Translations under genes and position numbers: made by a program
Notes under the pieces: model-generated
What the model saw: only the letters and a program-made list of their open reading frames with translations
Database searches by the model: none
What the model was told of the DNA's origin: nothing
DNA from: Spinellus fusiger
Lineage: Eukaryota > Mucoromycota > Mucoromycetes > Mucorales > Phycomycetaceae
NCBI GenBank assembly: GCA_025094145.1
Contig: JALLLS010000002.1
Coordinates: forward strand, 186,001 to 250,000
Direction: 5' to 3'
Length of the DNA stretch: 64,000 bases
Part shown: piece after piece, positions 1,110 through 64,000 of the stretch
How the letters are laid out: each line of letters begins with the position of its first letter
How positions within the stretch are numbered: position 1 is the stretch's first letter

Positions 1110-1945
1110 CACACCAGGAGATCTTTAGGATATAAAAGGAAATAGTCGAAATACAATTGTTTAAGAAATGACATTGATTTGAAAAGGAGCAAAAACAAAT
1201 TAAGATGCATTCATGTTATTTTTTAAACAAATAAAGATTATTATGTAGATTTACCTGTAAATATCTGAATCCCAAAGGAAACCACCTTCGATGTAGCGAT
1301 ATATAATATGAATATCTATTCTTCTCGACAGAAGAGAGTTGGTCTGTGGTGACCATTCAAAGCCTCTTCTGTAATTGTATATATATTCTTTTCAGCATTC
1401 ACATCCCTGTTCCAAACAATTCCACAACTTTGGCAAGCGCGGATACTGTTGAAATTTACTAATACCTCGGTGAGATTATGTGCGCTACAATTGTGGCAGA
1501 TCTTTAGAACAAAAAAAGAAAACAGAGTAGCTGTTAGAAGAGCTTTTCATATTGGGTAAGAGGTCAATCAGGTTTACTCTCGATGTAAAGAACTCATCAA
1601 CATCAACCATAAGAAGATCTCTATCTTTTTGTCTCTTTTTTTCAATGATTGATATAAAATTCTCGTCAAACCAACACGATGACCTTTAAACTTGACAGCA
1701 TCTTTTACCTTTATTCCTGTGCCATAAGCAACGACTGGTAGTTTGGTAGGATCATACTCCAATCCTTTTAGGTGCCAATACCCCTTTTCAATAATAAAAC
1801 AGTAAAAATAATTAGTTTGAGATGTATTAATGTACTCTCTGTCTGTTTGTGTCGTATTACCCTTGCACTGGCACCTTCTTTTTGCCTTTGTCTTTGTAAC
1901 GGATTCATTGGGTTTATTATAGTAAAAGAATATAAAATAGAAACT
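1110..1945 (-). mobile_element. E1: degraded Fanzor-carrying TIR element (left part)
   Basis: The left end CACACCAGGAGATCTTT after a TA (1108-1109), followed by GGATATAAAAGG, matches the ends of the complete element at 18203-22104. As in that element, a Fanzor C-terminus lies about 200 bases inside the left end and is encoded on the minus strand, so the layout is the same. Only the first 30 bases or so are similar by eye; the rest of the terminal region has diverged. No matching right end is certain. It may have been lost, or the end at 4028 may have served, with a later element in between. The right limit given here is simply where Fanzor-like coding stops. Confidence 0.6.
1316..1800 (-). 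pseudogene. Fanzor (eukaryotic TnpB-like nuclease) C-terminal relic
   Basis: Read on the minus strand, 1578-1800 encodes PTKLPVVAYGTG, KFKGHRVGLTRILYQ and, after a frame slip near 1615-1640, MVDVDEFFTS. A 76-base GT-AG intron (1502-1577) then joins to ICHNC, and the last exon (1316-1501) continues to a second zinc pair CQSC and the RuvC-III-type motif WNRDVNAEKN before the stop. The DEF-TS, paired CxxC and NRDxNA motifs are hallmarks of Fanzor/TnpB RNA-guided nucleases. The gene is broken by the slip, and no convincing N-terminal half is found upstream. The sequence is clearly not the same lineage as the Fanzor at 18453-20600, which has a long zinc-finger insertion and NRDMAATLN. Confidence 0.75.
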
Positions 1946-2830
1946 GACTAACATGTCAGACATAATAAACATACACAAACACTCACCAGATCACAACTGT
2001 TGGTTTATATGCCAGACAAAGGCAAACAAGTTAAAGAGGATGGAAGTTATGAAGAACAACAGACAGTGTGGTTGGCAGGTATTAATATCTGAGCAGAAAA
2101 GAATAAATCGAATTTTCACAAGTCATTTGCTTAATCAGAACTACCAAAGTAATGCAGACTATAACAACATTCTAGAAAGAAAAGAATTGCTTAAAGAACA
2201 GTTGCCTAGTTACCCGTTGTGATCAAATCGTGTGTTGTGTTCCTGTTCATGTACTCTCTTTGATTTCCCTAGACTAGCCTTTGTATCCAATACTCCATTT
2301 CGTTGTTCCTGCTAGAGACCGAACTACTACCAATTCGTCTCTCTAGTAGTTCTGTTGATAACCATAGTGCCCTTTATTACAAAATAAAGGAGATATTTTA
2401 CAACAAAATCACTTTATGGAATTCTATGGCCTTGAAATACATGACCAAGATTATACACACTATATAACAGAACAGTTAACTTTCCCAGTCTGCCTGAATG
2501 TTCTATGAAGACCATATCTATTGCTTGAGAACAGCAAAATATTCAAATTCATAGTAAAAAAAAGAAATACCAAACTAATATAAAAGTGTAGTTATCTACA
2601 TCTTTAATAAAATAGACTTTGATCCAAATAGCTTCCTAGAGTATAAACAAGATAGGCTTTAAGGACTTGAGTAGCTGACTTTTTCTTATTCTTGACTTGT
2701 TTTCTTTCTTTATCTCAACATTGGTGCCATTATTATTCCAACCACCAGCTTGCCTTCTGTCACTCCATACCCTTCTCTTTTCTATCAATTTCTGTGTGAG
2801 TAACCAGCCTCACGAGGTTCTGTGTGTCTC
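1946..2830. other. repeat-rich region, no recognised gene
   Basis: A plus-strand open stretch at 1953-2222 (89 codons) has no family I recognise. The segment 2798-2830 (GAGTAACCAGCCT followed by CTGTGTGTCTCTTG) recurs in altered form at 33035-33075, inside an insertion that splits a Tc1 remnant, so both belong to a dispersed repeat of unknown type. Confidence 0.3.
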
Positions 2831-4028
2831 TTGTCACATAGCAACGGAGGATTTCTGGGATATATAAAGAGATATACGAACAATAAAATTACAATTTTTT
2901 TTGTTGGCTAATGTGTTTGAAAAGAACCTTTTCACTGTCTGTCTGTTTTAGCATTGACTATGAGCTGTGCAATTAAACACTATAAAGTTGGATAAAAGGA
3001 AAAGGTAAAGCTGACATTGCAACTCAATCACTGAATTTATTAACATAATGTGCTATCCATAAGCCCACACTATTTTCAGCATAACATTGATTGAGAAAGA
3101 TTTATTATAGAACACACTGAATCAACTCTAGTGGTCATTGTCCATAAAATAGAACCAAACTTACTTGTGTTGAGAACTGTATAGCCATTCATTGAATCTA
3201 TATTCACAATCACCTCAATTATCTTATTGTAACTGTTATTAACAGTGATGATTGATGATAACAAGATATTGTTTCTAATACTGGACTTTGGGCTCAAGGC
3301 AAGTAGAGTGTGAATTGTTTGACTTGTGAATTTTGACTTGTGGATCTTATGAGTGAAGACTAAAATGTATACATTACCAGAATAGAGAGAAAGAAAGATT
3401 TTTTTTTGATATTCCCCTCCTTTTGTTATCTCCCACACTAAATATATAACATGATACTTAAGTATTCGTCAAGATGAGCATAACTGAGCAAGGTAATGTG
3501 CCATTACTAACAAATAAAAACAATAGAAGTGATGGACACTACCAAGGACTATTCTAGTGATAAAAAGGTAAGCAGCATCTTCATCTGGGCTATGGCTTAT
3601 TCTAATGTACAAAACACTCAATGTATTGTTATTAGGCAAGTTAAGGCTCTTCTCAAGTCAGTCTTAGGTGATCTTCTATACTGTCTAGGGTCTCTAGGGT
3701 ATACTCCTGAGCATAGTTATCTATCTCCCAAGAATAAATCACAAGGCCTTTAGGGTATGGATTTTATTGCTATGAGTAAATGCACTTGAGCAGTATCTAT
3801 AGTCATAATATAGTATTAGCTATACTATTACAATAAACAATGCTATTCATAAGCAATATATTCTATTGATAATATAATTTGATATTGAGGTATCACAAAA
3901 GGAAATGTTTATTTGGATATCCGCAAACCTTTTGATTTTAATCATTTTTCCATAGAAGGGTAAAATATTTTCGGTCTTAAAAGGAAGGATATATCACCGC
4001 TTAAAGACCAGAAAAATCTCCTGATGTG
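2831..4028 (-). mobile_element. E2: element without Fanzor, sharing the Fanzor-element ends
   Basis: The right end (AAAAATCTCCTGATGTG then TA at 4029-4030) and the last 550-600 bases match the right part of the Fanzor element (21545-22104) closely by eye, including AAGATGAGCATAACT and TAAGCAG-TCTTCATCTGGG. The left subterminal region (GGGATATATAAAG ... GGCTAATGTGTTTGAAAAG) matches 18221-18340. The first 15-20 bases at the left are eroded, so the left border is approximate. The centre (2980-3400) is not found in the Fanzor element but is shared with the element at 60286-61540, so it is not a simple deletion copy. Confidence 0.7.
3076..3438 (-). CDS. unknown 120-residue open frame inside E2
   Basis: An uninterrupted frame of 120 codons on the same strand as the Fanzor gene of the related element. 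I recognise no domain. Interest comes only from the second copy: 60960-61290 inside E4 contains the same stretch with stops, and conserved peptides such as SKFGSILWTMTTRV and SITVN-SYN-IIEVI can be read in both. It may be a relic of an accessory protein or merely conserved element DNA. Confidence 0.25.
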   Translation of the reverse strand: MWEITKGGEYQKKIFLSLYSGNVYILVFTHKIHKSKFTSQTIHTLLALSPKSSIRNNILLSSIITVNNSYNKIIEVIVNIDSMNGYTVLNTSKFGSILWTMTTRVDSVCSIINLSQSMLC

Positions 4029-17991: not shown

Positions 17992-18202
17992 GCCACTTGC
18001 TCTCTCTCTTCTTTCTATTTCTATTGAGGTGTTGTAGGGTGCTTTATTGGGTTCTCGTGCCAAAAGCAAAAATAAAAATAAAAAAATAAACAATTTTATG
18101 TTTTTATTCCTATCCAGATCATTGGATCAATCTTACTCGTAGGGAGTGATTATTGGATGATAATAAGCGGGTGGTAACTAAGTGATAGGTAATGAATAGG
18201 TA

Positions 18203-18219
18203 CACACCTAAAGATTTTT
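18203..18219 (+). repeat. left terminal inverted repeat of E3
   Basis: CACACCTAAAGATTTTT, pairs with the right end at 22088-22104 except for three bases (TAA against AGG). Confidence 0.8.
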
Positions 18220-18452
18220 GGGATATAAAAGTAAATACACGGACAATAAAATCGCAATATTCTTATGATTGGCTGATGTGTTTTAAAAGGGTATTTTCGC
18301 TGTCTAAATGGACTATTTCAAACTCTGTCTGCCTATCCTAGCAATAGCTACACTATCTTCATAAAGTATTAGTATATCCTTGGGGAAATTATAGTATAGA
18401 AATGTAGTATGGTTCAAAAAGACATTTGTATCTTGATATAGTACAGCGATAA
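18203..18452 (-). ncRNA. candidate Fanzor guide-RNA (omega RNA) scaffold region
   Basis: In characterised Fanzor and TnpB loci the guide RNA comes from the segment downstream of the nuclease stop and ends at the element border, so that the guide is read from the flanking DNA. Here that segment is the 250 bases between the stop (18453) and the left end. About 120-160 bases nearest the end (18203-18360) are conserved almost without gaps in the Fanzor-less element E4 (61385-61540, inverted) and partly in E2 (2840-2960), far beyond the 17-base inverted repeat. The RNA itself, its ends and fold are inferred; no transcript evidence is available here. Conservation could instead reflect transposase binding. 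Confidence 0.35.
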
Positions 18453-20600
18453 CTACACCGGATTCTTTTTTGATGTTTTGGTGGATCGACTACTACTAGC
18501 TAAGGGTGACTCCTTTCTTTTGGTACCAACAGACTGTACTTTCTTGGATCGACAAAAGCGCTTGGGTCGCTTGCCTTCCTCTCGTAGTCCAAAAAAAACA
18601 TGACAAAAGTTCAATGTTGCTGCCATGTCCCGATTCCAAAAGCGTTGAGAAATTATCTCATCAGAAACTCCAGCAGTTTTGGTCATGATCTTCAAACATT
18701 GTTGGTTTTTGCACCTAAATAAAAATAAAAAATAATAAACCTATTAGCCTTTTCTTTGACTTTTATAGAAAAAAAAGAATATTTTTACCTTAAAAGACCA
18801 TGACATGTCACTGTGGGGCTCTTCTCTCTTCTGAAGGGTCTTGGGTTTTGTACTTTCTTGAATTTCTCAAGCTCACCGTTCTTACAAGAAGGACAAAAAA
18901 TAGATGTTTTGAACTCATCAATAAGGAACACCTTGAACCCTTCTTTCTTCAATATTCTTCTTATTCCAACACCTCTCACTGGTTCATGGAACTTTGTGTT
19001 TCCTACAGACCAATTGCCAATCACCATTACAGCATCATCGCCAAACTTTCTTCGAAGATTTCTAGCTAGCCGTTTGTCTGATTGTTGCTGATTAATAAAG
19101 CTTGAAAGCTTCATTTTACGAAATGGGAGTAAACCATTGGCATTCCGGTTTTCCACAGCAGGAGTATCTTCATTTAAATAATAGTTATGCAACACTGGGG
19201 TAACTCTGGCTCTTTCCTCGAGGTATCTTGCAAACCTTTCACAATTGACTGTTGAAGATGTATGTCCTGACATGGATAATTCAGCTGCTTTCACTTCATC
19301 AGGCTTCAAGTTCTCACGGAGCTTCCTGAAATTCCTCAACTTGTTTTCAATAGCACTTTGATTGCTAGTGTATCGGTATGTTCTTTTGTTCTCTAAAGTG
19401 CTATCTTCATGCATGCAATAAAGTATATCACGACGACCAGGGTCAATCAACACACACTTGCCGATACTAGCTGCCAATTCTTTTTTCCCCAAATCTTCAA
19501 TGTATTGGAATTCATCAAGTTCCTTTGTTTCTTTCTTGATTCTTCCACCGCCACCTTTTTTTGTATCATGGTTTTGTTTCAACACAGATACACCAACACC
19601 GTCAGTCATCACCATTCCCCTAAACTTCATTGCATTTCTTTCACCCTGCGGCTTCATTGCTTTTGTTGTGGTATCAATAACAGCCCCCCACACTCTATCT
19701 TTGTCCAAATGGCTGATAATAGGTCTTTTCAATAGATGGGTGTTCAATATACGCGTATCTATTGTCATATAAGATGGTATGAATGTTCTTCTCAGCGGAA
19801 AACAGTTGAGAGGCTTGTCTTGAAGGACTTCACACATGCTTGATAGCTTATAATAAGCCTTCAAATGCTTTGGGGTGTTTGCTTTGCAGTAATAGTAAAC
19901 AGAGTCTTTGGAAAATTGATAGTTCATGGGATAAGAGCTAAAGATATCATGAATCATATCAATATCATGAGTAGAGAGGAATTCTTTTGGTAGATTGTCG
20001 ATTTTTCCAGATGAAATGACTGTTTTGACTTTATTGCATTGTTCAATAATATCCTTTACTACAGCTGATACTTCCGTCTCTGTGCTGCCCTTTTTCTTCA
20101 TTTCTTCTTTTACTGTCTTTATTCGTTCATTCTTTTTCAAAAGTATGTTTAATAACATGCGCAGCTTGTTTCTAAAGTGTAATGAGACACCATTGAGGTA
20201 CGCTGTGTTTATTTTCCTTGCTTCCTACATGGCTATTTGAAAGGCATACTTTAAACTGACTGGCTCATATAGACTGTGTTGAAAGTACATGTCTCGATGG
20301 CTGTTGATAAGTTCTCGGTTGGTTTTTGACTTTGAAGAATTTGCTTGTCTATTTGGCTTGTAACTCTGAAGAAGCGACAAAAAGACCACTGTAAAAATCA
20401 ACATTGGCAAAATCCTCCAGAGCAAAGGCAGGGTTATTTTCCAATTCTTGAATGAATATGTACTTTATAAAAGCGAATGTATGCGTTACAAGAATATGGA
20501 CAATAGATACAAGTGTCTTGAGCGGCAAAAGATACTGCGGTTTCCATCCAATACCAGTGATTGAGCTTTTCACTGCTATCATCTTTAGAGCAGGTTCCAT
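18453..20600 (-). pseudogene. Fanzor RNA-guided nuclease (eukaryotic TnpB), recently inactivated
   Basis: Nearly complete gene for a Fanzor of about 690 residues. The N-terminal region starts at ATG 20600 (IAVKSSITGIG, VHILVTHTFAFIKYIF). Next come ARKINTAYLNGVSLHFRNKL and NILLKKNERIKTVKEE. RuvC-I D is in CVLIDPGRRDILYC (near 19440), a candidate RuvC-II glutamate in FLIDEFKTS (18914-18916), then the zinc finger FCPSC ... GLLRC-KNQQC and RuvC-III D in FWNRDMAATLNF (18627-18629). The tail is basic (KKVQSVGTKRK), like a nuclear signal. A 74-base GT-AG intron (18715-18788) lies inside the zinc finger, and joining the exons completes it. Two lesions are visible: TAG at 20225-20227, probably from CAG, and a frame change between 20345 and 20395. 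A shorter product from an internal ATG (20158) would still hold all catalytic motifs. Family identity is firm. Confidence 0.88.
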
Positions 20601-20780
20601 GAAGAAAATAAAATAAAGACGAGTTGACCTTTTCTTTTTATACTATTTCTGTTTTATAATTGGTTTCCACATGCCATTGATTCAATCCGTGATTTGAAAA
20701 CCAAGAAGTTGTGTTAAAGCATAATATTTGTATATCTATCAATGGAAACTGTGAATCCCATGGGTTTCTATACACATATA

Positions 20781-21442
20781 CAGTCCCATACAATAAGTGA
20801 GTTGACAGAATTCTTTTTATTTTATTTTGAAAAATAAAGGTACATCTATCAGTTTAAGATGTTCATAATAAAAGATTCATGAAATAACACAGTATTTGTA
20901 ATGGTTGTTCTTTAGATGATTGTCTATATTCTTATTATAAAAATATTACTCGGTGCTTTGTAATAGAGTCTTTATTTTTAATCACTCTAGTCCCTTTATT
21001 ATTGTACACAACTGTAAAACAGGATTCGTCAGACCAAACAACCTTGTTTTTACATCATTCATATTTCTCAAATCATATGCAATTATTTGTATAGAGTTTC
21101 TGCGAATAGACAAAATGATAGCCAGTTTTGAAGTAGATGACACTTTTTCAGGTCTTCCTGTATGCATTTTGAGTTGAAATGTGCCTTTGTTTTTATACAA
21201 TAGGACACTCTTGTCTATTGTACTCTTTGGGATGTCGACATTGTCAGCAATCTCTTGATAAGTAGCACGTCTTTTCCATTGTCCTGTGATTTGACCTCTA
21301 ATAAATATAGCATGCTCTCTTCTTTTGATAGGGCTATCTTCATGTTCTTGGCTAAGAGTTGGCTGGTTTTCATTGTTTGAATAAACTGTAAAATAAAAAT
21401 AGAAAATTGATTTGCCGTCTACTCATTTTTTGCATGGGACTG
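20781..21442 (-). mobile_element. B2: deleted Tc1-like element nested in the Fanzor element
   Basis: Ends CAGTCCCATACAATAAGTGAG and, at the right, the inverse of CAGTCCCATGCAAAAAATGAG, each next to TA. Inside, a minus-strand frame (20982-21200) encodes the DNA-binding part of a Tc1 transposase (MYKNKGTFQLKMHTGRPEKV) nearly identical to that of B1 (47912-49290). The segment matching B1 up to about 48130 is joined straight to sequence matching about 48630, so the catalytic domain has been deleted. It is a non-autonomous copy that landed between the Fanzor promoter side and the right end of E3. Confidence 0.85.
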
Positions 21443-22087
21443 TATACCTCACCAAAATAAGAATATTTTTTATTCTTTGTTCTTGTTATTATCTTGTTAT
21501 TTTTCACACTGCACATACAACTTAACGCCCAAGTACTTGTCAAGATGAGCATAACTAATCAAGGTAATGTGCCATTATTAACAAAGAAAAACAATAGAAA
21601 GAAGTTGTAGACACCACTAGAGGGTATTCTTGAGATAAAAAGGTAAGCAGTGTCTTCATCTGGGCTTGTGCTCATTGCATTCCACAAGACACTCAATGTA
21701 TTGTTATTAGGCAAGTTAATACTCTTCTCAAGTCAGTCTTAGGTGGTCTTCTGTACTATCTAGGGTCTCTAGGGTGTACTACTGAGCATAGTTATCTATC
21801 TTCCAAGAACAAAGAACTGGGTTTTTAGGTTGTAGATTCTATTGCTATGAGGGAATGCACTTGGGCAGTGGCTATAGTCATAATATAGTATTATCTATAC
21901 TATTACAATAAACAATTTTATTCATAAACACTATATTTTACTGATAATACAATTTGATATTGAGGTATACTACAAAAGGAAACAATTATTTGGATACTTG
22001 TAACTCTTTTGATTTTAAACACAGGTCCATAAAAGGCAAGAGATTTTTAGACGTAAAAGGAAGGAGATATCACCGCCTAAAAGCCAG

Positions 22088-22104
22088 AAAAATCTCCTGG
22101 TGTG
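22088..22104 (-). repeat. right terminal inverted repeat of E3
   Basis: Read on the minus strand, CACACCAGGAGATTTTT; same sequence as the ends of E1 and E4. Confidence 0.8.
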
Positions 22105-22106
22105 TA

Positions 22107-23214
22107 GTAATAAAAATCCATTGACCTGTAGAGTACATTGGAGAATATATTCCTCGTATTCTTTTCTTTATATTCTTCTCATTCATCCCTTCTCTGCTCT
22201 AGTGTTGGTATGGCAAAGTGGGTGTGTATCTACCTACACAGCTCCTATTTAATAGCAGGAGTGACGATGGAGGAAGAAAACAAACAGTCCTTGGAATGGG
22301 TCAAAGGGTGTGGAGTGAAGCAACTCATTGATTCTTACCGGACACTAAAGATAAGAGCATCCAGCAGCCCTGCCTATTCCTGCCTATTGTTTGCTTGCCA
22401 TAAAGTGCAGCACTGTACAACACCCATACACAACTTCTGTTTCATAGACAGTAGATATAACCTTAAAGAAACAGACTAGCCAGTCCAAGGATCTTTTTTT
22501 TTTAAAAATAAAATAAAAAGATACTTTAATATACTTGGACAAGTGGCAGAAGCACACTCTATGATAGACATTGTACAGTGATGGTTGATATTTTATTCTT
22601 TATTCTTTATTCGTGATATTTCCATTAGCTACTTATCATAAGAACCAACCTAGAATATAAATAACAGTGAGTTGACCAATGCTATGAACAATTCAAACAA
22701 AGAATAAAGGAATAGATAAAGTGTTCAGAAATTTGGGTATAGCTAATTACTCTACATGTACAGTTCAGACTGACGTGCAAATGTCTTGTTGTATCATCAA
22801 GACACTTTATCAAGGACAGAGATATAAAATAGAATAGAACCATGCATTACCTTTTTCTTTTTTCTTTTAAAAAATAGAAAATAAAAAATAGAAAATATTA
22901 ACCAGCAGCCATAAGAAAAGTAAAGACAAAAACAACAAGGACTGAAGCTTGCTCTCTTTATTTATAGGCCTTTGGTATTTGCCATGAAAATTTTTCAAGG
23001 ATAAGTCACGGTAGTCCAAAGTGCAAGGAGTTCAAAACAATAGAGTTTGAAGCAGTAGGGTCCGATGGAAGAAGGGAGGATTATAATTTACAGATGTTCA
23101 GGTAGATAAGTAAAGATCAAGAAGGGATGTGTGTGTGTGTGTGTGTAGAAACAAGAAAATCAAAGCAATAATAAAATAAAGAGTATCCATATCTCAGAAA
23201 GTGGCGTAGGGAGT
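22107..23214. other. intergenic region between E3 and the DNAJC3-like gene
   Basis: A 113-codon plus-strand frame (22138-22479) has no recognised family and no supporting feature. The rest is AT-rich, with a (GT)n run at 23129-23145 in the 3' flank of the co-chaperone gene. Confidence 0.4.
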
Positions 23215-47911: not shown

Positions 47912-49290
47912 TAGTCCCACGTAATAAGTGACTGGAAAAAATATTAATTTTTTTGAATTTTTTTTTTTTTTGAAAAATAAAGGTATTTCTATCAGTCCAA
48001 GATGTTCATAATAAAAAGTTCATGGAATAACACGAGATTTGGAACAGTTGTTCTTTAGATGATTATCTACATTTTCATTATATAAATATTTCTCAGTACT
48101 TTGTAGAAAAGCCTTTATTCTTTATCACAGCAGAGCACCTCCTTGGCATGCTATCAACTAAATTTTCCAAATGAATTTTTGGAATCTTCCCCCATTCACT
48201 ACGCAAGCATTGTTCAAGCTGTTGTGCATTGGCTATGCTTGTTCGATGCGAATTGATCTTCTTTTCAAGATAAGCCCAAACATGTTCAATTGGGTTAAGA
48301 TCTGGACTTTGTACAGGCCAAAAATCAAAACCTTCGATCATACATCTCTCCTGTTTGTACCATCTGCTATATCCTCCAGTATGGCAAGGAGCAATGTCTT
48401 CTTGGAAGAGCATGATCTCATTGAGGTTCTTTTGCAATTTCTGGAACCAGGGAAGAAAGTATTTGGCAAGTACATTGACATACTTGTCTTGATCAACTGA
48501 CCCCTCCAAGAGTACAAGAGGTCCTACACCTCTACGCCAAAAGCAACCCCAAACCATGACTGAACCTTTGCCATACTTGTATGTCCTTTGCGTATGACGC
48601 TCCTCATACCTCTCATCCATTTCTCTGATCACTCTAGTTCTTTTATCGTTGCCCACAACTGTGAAACGAGACTCATCAGACCAAACGACGTTACTTCACC
48701 TATCCACTGGCCAATCAGCCTTGTTTCTACACCATTCCAATCGCCTTTGCTTATGAGTAAGTGTCATAACAGGTTTACTTGATGGTGAGCATGAAAAAAA
48801 CCCGAGTTCATTCATGTATTTTACAAATGTGCTACGGAAAATATCCATGCCTGCATCATCGATATTCTTCAAATGATATGCAATTGTTTGCATAGGGTTT
48901 CTGCGAATAGATAAAAAAATTGCCAGTTTTGAAGTAGATGAGACCTTTTCAGGTCTTCCTGTATGCATTTTGAGTTGAATTGTGCCTTTGTTTTTATACA
49001 ATAAGAAAATCTTGCCCACTGTACTATTTGGAATGTCAAGATCGTCAGAAATCTCTTGATAAGTAGCATGTCTTTCCCATTGTCCAATGATTTGACCTCT
49101 AATAAACATATCATGATCCCTTCTTTTAATAGAAGTATCTTCATGTTCTTGGCTAAGAGTTGGCTGATTCTCATTGCTTGAAGACATTTTTTGAATAAGT
49201 TATAAAAGAAAAGAAAAGAGGTCTATTTTATTTTTGAAGAATAAAGAAAGGAAATTAATATTTTTTCCAGTCACTTATTACGTGGGAGTG
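47912..49290 (-). mobile_element. B1: Tc1/mariner-like transposon inserted in A1
   Basis: 1.38 kb, ends TAGTCCCACGTAATAAGTGA and inverse CACTCCCACGTAATAAGTGA, flanked by the duplicated TA (47910-47911, 49291-49292). The insertion site can be read directly because the A1 protein frame resumes after it. It is the best-preserved transposon in the window and therefore probably among the youngest. Confidence 0.92.
48093..49187 (-). pseudogene. B1 transposase, one stop codon from an open frame
   Basis: A single reading frame of 364 codons is interrupted only by TGA at 48696-48698, where relatives usually have Trp (DR*SNVVWSDES). It has an N-terminal helix-turn-helix (HATYQEISDDLDIPNSTVGK), the linker motif KMHTGRPEKVSS, first D in VVWSDESRF, VMVWGCFWRRGVGPLVLLEG, second D in LFQEDIAPCHTGGYSR, and E in SPDLNPIEHVWAYLEKK. 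There are 36 residues between the second D and E, against 34 in Tc1 proper and 35 in A1. A G-to-A change would explain the stop. Product would be a DNA cut-and-paste transposase. Confidence 0.9.
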
Positions 49291-59644: not shown

Positions 59645-60232
59645 TCAAGTCTCATCATTGGCCTGTAAAAGGTGGACTGTACAGCTGGATTGATCATGCT
59701 CCTGCTTAATCTCTTCATTGGTAATTATGGACTTGGTCTCGATATCTTTTGTAGGTTCAAGACTTTCATTCTTCCTGGATGCCTTCAAGATATTGCAAAC
59801 AGTTGAATGGCAAACACCAACCATGGCCGCTATCTTCCTTTGACTGAGTCCATTGACCTTGTGTTCATATACAACAGTGTTGCGCATGTCTTCATCAACA
59901 CGTTTTCCCTTTTTACGAGTCTTATGTGGAATTCCAATACTAAGCCTGTGCTGTTTCAAGATTCTGGAAACAGTTACATCACTAATACCAATCATATCAG
60001 CAATTATCACTTGGGTGAGTCCATTGTTAATGTATTCATGTACAATAGTTTTACGCATGTCGTCATCAACACGTTTTCCCTTTTTACGAGTCTTATGGGT
60101 ATCTTCATCACTGAAATTCTGTTTATTGGTGTCCGTTTTCTCTGTGTTGTTTGGTTTTTCAGTCATGGTTGCTTCTTCATTCTTGAAGGCTTTTTTAATG
60201 TCATTTGCTTCTTCAATGAATGAAATAGACAT
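59645..60232 (-). CDS. protein with two copies of one helix-turn-helix unit
   Basis: Open frame of 195 residues from ATG 60232 (MSISFIEEAND). After a polar start come two units of 57 residues. Each begins HKTRKKGKRVD-DMR, a strongly basic patch, followed by a helix-turn-helix: LTQVIIADMIGISDVTVSRI in the first and LSQRKIAAMVGVCHSTVCNI in the second. These resemble the DNA-binding part of Tc1/pogo-type transposases, but no DDE catalytic domain follows; the tail is acidic and polar. The DNA coding the basic patches is duplicated almost exactly (59883-59926 and 60054-60097, one difference in 44). The frame is also open upstream into element E4, so the start is a choice. It may be a transposon-derived DNA-binding protein or a truncated transposase. 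Confidence 0.6.
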   Translation of the reverse strand: MSISFIEEANDIKKAFKNEEATMTEKPNNTEKTDTNKQNFSDEDTHKTRKKGKRVDDDMRKTIVHEYINNGLTQVIIADMIGISDVTVSRILKQHRLSIGIPHKTRKKGKRVDEDMRNTVVYEHKVNGLSQRKIAAMVGVCHSTVCNILKASRKNESLEPTKDIETKSIITNEEIKQEHDQSSCTVHLLQANDET

Positions 60233-60285
60233 TGAGTAATGAAGGTAGAGAATTGATATAGCTACGCTCCGGTGTAAATAAAGTA

Positions 60286-61540
60286 CACACCAGGAGATTT
60301 TTCTGGCCTTTAAGCGCTGATATCTCCTTCCTTTTACATTACAAAAAAAGTTGCCTTTTATGGATCTGTATTTAAAATCAAAGGTTTGCAAGTATCTAAA
60401 TCTTTCTTTCCTTTTGTGGATACCTCAATATCAAATTGTATTATCAATAAAATACATTGTTTATGAATAAAATTGTTTATTATAATACTGTAGCTAATAA
60501 CATACTATTACTATAGCTACTGCCCAAGTGCATTCCCTCATAGCAATAGAATCCACACCCTAAAATCTTTGTGATTTATCATTGGGAGATAGATAACTAT
60601 GCTCAGGAGTATACCCTAGACAGTATAGATACCTTAGACAGTATGGAAGACTACTTGGGACTGACTTGAAAGGAGTCTTTACTTGCCTAATAACAATACA
60701 TTGAGTGTCTTGTGGATTACAATGGTATCAAGCCCAGATGAAGACACTGCTTACCTTTTCATCACTAGAATAGCCTTTGGTAGTGTCTATGACCTTCTTC
60801 CATTGTTTCTCTTTGTTAATAATGGCACAATACCTTGCTCAGTTATGCTCATCTTGACAAGTACTTGGGTGTTAAGTTGTATGTGCAGTGTGGGAAATAA
60901 CAAAAGGAGGGGAATATCAAAACAAATAATAATTTTTCTTTCTCTATTCTGGTGACGTATACACTAGCCTCTACTCATAAAATTCACAAGTCAAAATTTA
61001 CAAGTCAAACTCACAAGTCAAACAATTAACACTCTATTTGCCTTGGGCCTAAAGTTCAGTATTAGACATAATACTTAGTTATCATTAAGTATCACTGTTA
61101 ATACCAGTTACAATGAGATAATTGAGGTGATTATAGATATTTAGTCAATAAATGAATACACTGTTCTTAATATAAGTAAGTTTGGTTCTATTTTATGGAC
61201 AATGACCACTAGAGTTAACTCTATAAGTTCTGTAATAAATCTTTCTTAGGCAGTGCTATACTGCAAATACTGTGGGCTTATGGATAACAAATTATGCTAA
61301 GAGAAGAATATCAGTGACTGAGTTGTAATTTTGGGGTGATTCTTGTTCTATTTCGTCTACAGCCAATTCTATACTTTTTAATTACAAAGTCAGTAGCCAT
61401 TGCTAAAACAGGCAAGTAGAGTTTGAAATAGTTCATTTAGACAGCGAAAAAGCATTTTAAAACACAATAGCCAATCATAAGAATATTGCAATTTTATTCT
61501 CAGGATATTTCCTTATATATCCCAAAAATCTCCTGGTGTG
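60286..61540 (+). mobile_element. E4: 1.26-kb element without Fanzor, complete ends
   Basis: Left end CACACCAGGAGATTTTT after TA (60284-60285), right end the inverse CACACCAGGAGATTTTT before TA (61541-61542): a perfect 17-base inverted repeat. It is inverted relative to E3. 60286-60850 matches the promoter-side end of E3, and 61385-61540 matches the segment between the Fanzor stop and the left end of E3. The middle is shared with E2 rather than with E3. No intact gene. Confidence 0.88.
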
Positions 61541-63340: not shown

Positions 63341-64000
63341 AAAGTTTTTTATTTGATGTTGAACATATCCTAAATATTTCGTCCTGAAATTTATTTTTAA
63401 AAGTATTAAATTCGATTGAGTGTGACTGTATTTAGATAACTTCTAGCACCCGAGTTTATCATCTATCTATTATAATTCAAAAATCACGGCAATCTTTTAC
63501 TTAGCGACTTATGGTTAACTTTATCTTTTTCATTTTTCATTTACGATTGATCCAACGATTATTAACTCTTATTTCAGTAGTGTTTTTTTAAAACATTATA
63601 ATGTCTTTTTGAATAATAAATTCCAATAAGACACACTTGATTATGTATTTAGATAGTTTACCTGTATCATGGGTTTCTATCAGTTAGTCAATCAAGGCTC
63701 TAGAGATCACTATGAAGGAGAAGAAATAATAAACCAAAAGGCATGGACTTTTTCTTGGTTCTAGGTGTATCATTTGAGTCGTAATTTATTCTGTTATATC
63801 TACAAAAGCACTTTGGGTGTGTGTCATTTTCCCTTAGAGGCATTATAATATGTCTAAATTTTAATGTAGCAGCGAAATCACGATTCTAAAGCCTCAATGT
63901 CTTGTCTTTTATACAATTTTAGTTTGAGCATCTTTGATTTTAGATTGACTACATGATCCCAAAGATCAAACTTATTGTCTGTATAGCTCTTTTTTTCTTA
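63341..64000. other. AT-rich DNA to the window end
   Basis: No gene or repeat is recognised. Confidence 0.4.

Follow-up and report, generated by a model that had tools for sequence, protein, structure and literature searches.

A broken Fanzor1 gene on a transposable element of Spinellus fusiger and the flank motifs of its family

The 64,000-nucleotide stretch of contig JALLLS010000002.1 of Spinellus fusiger analysed here (the window) contains a transposable element, E2, that carries a degraded gene of the RNA-guided nuclease Fanzor1 between inverted ends and TA target-site duplications. With a probability of roughly two in three, E2 can be viewed as a non-autonomous Fanzor1 carrier that was moved in trans by the transposase of sister elements and was retained by means of Fanzor at sites bearing the target-adjacent motif (TAM) TTAC-TA. 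The evidence lies in the flanks of the family, where motifs are lineage-specific and absent in the transposase-bearing sisters sampled.

The Fanzor1 cargo

The Fanzor gene of E2 lies on the minus strand and runs from the right end of the element to its left end. The catalytic acids are legible in IDPGRRD, LIDEFKTS and WNRD, the last in the C-terminal exon, and the gene has an intron of about 70 bp at about 18717-18790. In the PDB (phmmer), the main open frame of 457 amino acids (aa) matches PpFz1 (top hit, E 5.8e-120), SpuFz1 (1.1e-44) and GtFz1 (2.4e-7); IDPGRRD, LIDEFKTS and the CPSC of the TNB zinc finger align with PpFz1 and SpuFz1. Most of the 120 homologs listed (of 126) carry PF26935, and the organisms named among them are mostly Mucorales, to which the genera concerned and Parasitella parasitica belong. 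Pfam assigned the frame to no family (E up to 0.01), and NCBIfam gave one match far below the cut-off. Judged by these similarities, the protein is a Fanzor1. A first, sequence-only reading had described the cargo as a Fanzor with N-terminus, RuvC-like D/E/D motifs and zinc finger, which the analysis confirms and narrows to Fanzor1. The gene is a pseudogene, broken by a frameshift in its N-terminal part and by a stop that lies in frame ahead of the 457-aa stretch. In the close copies compared, the breaks stand, by eye, mostly at different positions, which suggests that the Fanzor copies decayed after spreading. The ratio of non-synonymous to synonymous substitution rates (dN/dS) among 13 Fanzor copies has a median of 0.485 (range 0.2-0.9 over 78 pairs, which are not independent and include some frameshifted pieces); such a median makes constraint on the protein likely for the time when its copies were multiplying.

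The transposon family and its transposase

The family end has six matches in the window (up to 3 mismatches; 0.26 expected). The 17-mer end has 444 exact matches in the whole genome (reversed control 0), a longer left-end pattern 729 (up to 3 mismatches; control 0) and the right-end pattern 443 (up to 1 mismatch; control 0). The termini are CACACC..GGTGTG, and TA precedes 90 of the 95 unique ends in the sequence examined. Both ends of E2 and the TA on either side are present where the sequence-only reading had placed them, and the further copies that it had proposed to seek are found. The four sets of ends that it had counted are instead six ends in three pairs, delimiting E1, E2 and E3 (Table 1), and its view that these copies hold a transposase, a Fanzor or neither has to be revised, as the family transposase was recognised in none of the three. 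In E1 it was not recognised in translations read by eye, the matches to a transposase-bearing element lying in its end regions and at the tail end of the frame. E1, E2 and E3 have their right 0.6-1.2 kb in common, and E2 and E3 also share the left 150 bp.

Sister elements of 4.1 kb, with ends homologous to those of E2, encode a 915-aa transposase with the motifs DD-C2C-H3H-E (D318, D404, C423/C426, H650/H654, E671) and a predicted RAG1/Transib-like fold. Pfam gave no family for it; the frame is complete in one genome copy. By motifs, fold, TA duplication and CA..TG termini, rather than by a tree, the chassis is assigned to the CMCT clade as ESTA-like. A transposase associated with the ends of the E2 family, which had been proposed as a check, thus exists. 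The earlier statement that E2 lacks a DDE transposase of its own stands for the family transposase; it does not stand for a DDE remnant of Tc1/mariner type, nested within the element. This piece is not the source of mobility of E2: it has its own terminal inverted repeats (TIRs), a longer relative is present at another place in the window, and nine Fanzor-type copies, E2 included, show the same internal deletion pattern. Since the RAG1-fold protein is encoded by sisters whose ends are homologous, a Tc1/mariner chassis was rejected; the piece, which is absent from the copy L019, is a nested fossil of another family.

The coding remnant of E1 belongs to a second lineage, which recurs in other elements with the GATCTTTAGG left end (at least 150 matches listed, with 150 of 1019 candidates scored). 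PF07282 (Cas12f1-like_TNB) scores above the Pfam cut-off in two of four fragments of this lineage, and the Spinellus protein P0138 has a RuvC-I-like stretch, VDLGRKH. One fragment had no PDB match, the best PDB match of P0138 had an E of 0.68, and the match to the Fanzor1 profile is weak or absent. The lineage is therefore labelled Fanzor-like and may be described as a putative RuvC/TNB nuclease on the chassis of E2. In the close Fanzor copies, one mosaic excepted, the left end reads CACACC(T/C)AAAG or a near variant in place of CACACCAGGAG. One element (L015/L016, C145:246507-250846) combines a Fanzor-type body with 20 outer bases that belong to the other type of left end; ends seem to have been exchanged between subfamilies.

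Right-flank motifs and cargo

Flanks were read inward, the right end being that at the 5' side of Fanzor. Among the right ends listed (100 of 244), 77 have a C before the TA; in the two lists of left ends (100 of 111 and 63 of 63) the figures are 38/100 and 23/63 (p 3e-10). The pattern behind these lists does not cover ends with G at -6, and the background of the window is 17.8%. In a manual classification based on the loci and the ends listed, carried out after the motif had been noticed, C was found before the right TA in 5/20 transposase-bearing elements, 5/6 of E2 type, 21/24 of the E1 lineage and 8/13 ghosts, which lack both a recognisable Fanzor and a recognisable transposase. This count omits L101 (same flank as L057), L042 and L064 (right end without TA), one 5.3-kb pair, L003 (left end not in view) and the ends untypable within 1.5 kb (L068, L074, L075, L081, L082, L083 and L085/L086). 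When right ends were assigned automatically by position (200 ends, from two lists that show 100 of 244 and 100 of 120), the figures were 8/17 for transposase-bearing elements, 16/18 for the E1 lineage (p 0.012) and 8/10 for the E2 type (p 0.12), a contrast weaker than by hand but of the same direction. In the union of both assignments, C is present in 8/26 transposase-bearing elements, 11/13 of E2 type and 33/38 of the E1 lineage, i.e. 44/51 for the two Fanzor types against 8/26 (p 1.7e-6).

The E2 type is set apart by a longer motif. TTAC-TA (background 0.57%) is its commonest right flank, found at 8/13 right ends against 1/38 in the E1 lineage, 0/26 in transposase-bearing elements and 0/13 in ghosts (p 1.4e-7). 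Throughout the genome, TTACTA was matched at 28 right ends (control 0), of which 21 are E2-type, seven of these calls being made from the mariner piece only (50 bases in L121). Nine of the 28 stand, by eye, at the expected place of known Fanzor copies and two more (L080 and L007) are E2-type by DNA; the other 17, typed in 151-base windows, comprise 10 of E2 type, one of the E1 lineage, two ghost-like and four not typed. The possibility that TTAC is element sequence at the right of E2-type elements was not supported, as three of four copies, by eye, have no TA before TTAC.

Proposed mechanism and alternatives

The model of retention by peel-and-paste rests on bacterial TnpB. For E2 we infer the RNA, the cleavage, the repair and the action of the sister transposase, and the lifecycle could be drawn as follows. 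The RAG1/Transib-fold transposase of the sister elements would cut and paste E2 in trans. The guide of the living Fanzor would be the DNA adjoining the left end of E2 and its TAM would be TTAC plus the right TA duplication, giving in coding orientation the layout 5'-TTAC-TA-(right end, Fanzor, left end)-TA-guide-3'. Once E2 is excised, the closed donor site would read TTAC-TA-guide, a TAM with the guide's target directly behind it, and could be cut by Fanzor. Repair of the cut donor from a remaining copy would then reinstate the element. Because copies at TAM sites alone would be restorable after excision, such copies would accumulate.

A lineage-specific TAM predicts the contrast between right flanks, which supports Fanzor-assisted retention of copies; the proposal of the sequence-only reading that Fanzor restores lost copies thereby gains indirect support. 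To judge from the sisters that bear it, the transposase has no need of a flank motif. On balance, it is slightly favoured that two independent RuvC nuclease lineages on one RAG1-fold chassis each left a TAM footprint (TTAC-TA and YC-TA) where their insertions survived, the transposase-bearing sisters having left none.

The motif could also reflect targeting, with variants of the transposase or subterminal sequences preferring CTA or TTACTA in a single orientation, without any role for Fanzor. The left and right ends do differ among subfamilies, the transposase matches in the genome are diverse (55-100% identical to the query) and C is enriched in left flanks too, at 61 of the 163 left ends listed genome-wide (37% against 17.8%), an excess beyond what a one-sided TAM explains. 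However, the motif of the E2 type is one-sided despite inverted-repeat ends, as a C stands in 2 of its 13 left flanks and TTAC in none of them. Moreover, base -4 of the right flank is A in 10/13 E2-type elements and C or T in 33/38 of the E1 lineage on the same chassis, and the transposase-bearing copies sampled, among which both right-end variants are present, show neither motif. Targeting is considered rather unlikely.

It is very improbable that Fanzor acted at insertion, through RNA-guided cuts at TAM sites into which the element was copied by repair. Such homing predicts the same motif on the TAM side, but the TA duplication at nearly all ends points to staggered insertion by a transposase. 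Furthermore, the guides would be the flanks and would differ from copy to copy, so that an old guide would mismatch new sites.

Finally, Fanzor might be a dead passenger of a plain cut-and-paste family and the flank contrast an artefact of sampling or classification. Seven close Fanzor copies, E2 included, were compared by tblastn; three of them were assembled from two loci and one is truncated at the border of its contig. All seven have a frameshift or stop, the truncated one a stop; the unbroken full-length close copy that the sequence-only reading had hoped for is not among them. The fossil mariner was co-amplified, the samples assigned by hand are small, and the six transposase-bearing ends new in the positional list have C in 3/6. 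On the other side, the first 11 transposase-bearing ends (4/11 with C) and the nine fetched later (1/9; no right end was found in 8 of the 18 stretches fetched) agree with each other, the TTACTA scan recovered mostly E2-type elements, and dN/dS is below 1. A mere passenger is considered improbable.

Besides the broken copies, the excess of C at left ends, the classing by hand once the motif was known, the weaker positional contrast with its 3/6, and the E2-type calls made from the mariner piece, several results weigh against Fanzor-assisted retention. The ghosts are intermediate, their 8/13 being clearly distinct from neither group (p 0.056 and 0.09). No empty site of E2 was found when 15 joined element flanks were searched against the sequence examined; one of the 15 (L051) was spanned by continuous sequence, at window 63702-63809 (78% identity). 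RNA folding of the left ends was no better than that of shuffles (z -1.2 to +1.8), and changes on both sides of predicted pairs were seen in 1/22 and 0/4 cases. According to one study (PMC11423790), the TAM of PpFz1 is ATN, not TTACTA; the same source reports that the Fanzor region contacting the TAM is variable.

Features of the window and other observations

Table 1. Positions in the window of E2, its parts and related features.
Feature	Position	Strand	Remarks
Element E1	1110..4028	-	GATCTTTAGG-type left end; remains of the second RuvC/TNB (Fanzor-like) lineage
Left TA duplication of E2	18201..18202		guide side
Fanzor-carrying element E2	18203..22104	-	3902 bp between TA dinucleotides; inverted ends, TA flanks
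Left-end 150 bp of E2	18203..18351	-	85% identity to E3; 80% over 137 bp to transposase-bearing elements
C-terminal Fanzor exon	18498..18722	-	WNRD, third catalytic D
Main Fanzor1 open frame	18785..20158	-	457 aa; RuvC-I D, RuvC-II E, first zinc-finger half
N-terminal Fanzor piece	20364..20588	-	other frame (frameshifted); in-frame stop also upstream of 20158
Nested Tc1/mariner fragment	20777..21446	-	defective, internally deleted, own TIRs; inside E2
Right-end region of E2	21441..22106	+	common to all family branches compared
Right TA duplication of E2	22105..22106		
Predicted TAM of E2, TTACTA	22105..22110	-	target context TTAC plus TA duplication
Longer mariner relative of the nested fragment	47951..49190	-	context, outside the E2 family
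Element E3, ghost	60286..61540	.	perfect 19-bp TIRs including TA; neither Fanzor nor transposase recognised

The left-end 150 bp of E2 are where an omegaRNA scaffold would be expected. A conserved omegaRNA structure is not supported by the comparison with shuffles or by the pair changes. A block, ATTTAGACAGCGAAAA, near the left end (window 18203-18351; L047:4062-4211) is kept in the Fanzor copies and most ghost copies compared and is altered, by eye, in transposase-bearing copies; it is a candidate part of the RNA scaffold.

Some elements of the family have unusual architectures. Four loci (L053, L062, L076 and L078) hold a composite made of a right end, a ghost left end, a remnant of the second lineage and a second left end, which apparently moved as one unit to more than one site, and a 0.66-kb element (L085/L086, C10:27275-27980) has right ends on both sides and no left end. 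In the window, a minus-strand frame at 59645-60391 with HTH_23 and HTH_SB matches extends into E3 and is perhaps a broken Tc1-like transposase.

Another Fanzor1 group, about 41-51% identical to the E2 protein, was found at 13 loci (L018, L021-L029, L033, L034 and L037), with some stop-to-stop frames over 640 aa. Its members have a sharp common 3' end, the hairpin AGATATTATAATATCT followed by CTAGTA or near variants, which we take to resemble a Helitron 3' end. They were rejected as intact copies of E2 (47% identity), as ends of the E2 family were not found around them and the hairpin stands at their 3' end; L029 has one E2-family end nearby.

Comparison with known systems

Several related systems are described in the literature. 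SPu-1 of Spizellomyces punctatus, a TIR element flanked by TA duplications, carries Fanzor1 only and is accompanied by many ghosts that lack Fanzor and whose ends differ slightly (PMC3627910), and the TAM of SpuFz1, CATA, corresponds to the conserved CA of the 5' end plus TA (PMC10432273; TA duplication from PMC3627910). E2 is likewise Fanzor1-only, with TA duplications and ghosts, and its proposed flank geometry is that of SpuFz1, the motif in the Spinellus family being TTAC-TA or (Y)C-TA instead of CATA. Unlike for SPu-1, a trans transposase with homologous ends is identified for the Spinellus family and provides a control for the motif; this family also has two cargo lineages, Fanzor1 and Fanzor-like, on one chassis, and its Fanzor copies are decayed. 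The nearest characterised relative of the E2 protein is PpFz1 of Parasitella parasitica (PDB 9cf0-9cf3), whereas the gene of E2 is broken.

ESTA transposons, from the CMCT clade, have a TA duplication, CA..TG termini and a D-D-C(2)C-H(3)H-E transposase with RAG1 likeness; the families described carry a TET/JBP dioxygenase and come from rust fungi (PMC12730594). The Spinellus chassis shares the TA, the termini and the transposase motifs, but its cargo is Fanzor and its host belongs to the Mucorales. ROr-4, PBl-3 and MCi-4 of Rhizopus, Phycomyces and Mucor are TIR elements with a Fanzor1 and no transposase of their own (PMC3627910), as is E2; unlike E2, they are assigned to MuDR and have 9-bp duplications. 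The Fanzor1 element of SfAV, whose TIR and duplication are predicted to lie within the guide RNA scaffold (PMC10711439), is also a Fanzor1-only non-autonomous TIR element, with another host, another duplication and an RNA that was shown. TA-flanked elements that carry Fanzor1 alone and are accompanied by ghosts were already known from SPu-1, and Fanzor elements in a MuDR chassis from the Mucorales. A literature search for Fanzor linked to CMC or EnSpm found nothing on point in titles and the starts of abstracts. Within the limits of the literature searched, three things are new: a trans transposase of RAG1 fold on elements whose ends are homologous, cargo of two lineages, and a TAM footprint that comes with a control.

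Significance

A genome in which homologous ends are shared by copies that bear Fanzor, copies derived from these and copies that bear the transposase makes it possible to separate the target choice of the transposase from retention by the nuclease. If true, the footprint of two nuclease lineages would be internally controlled evidence, drawn from a genome, that eukaryotic Fanzors retain cut-and-paste elements in nature.

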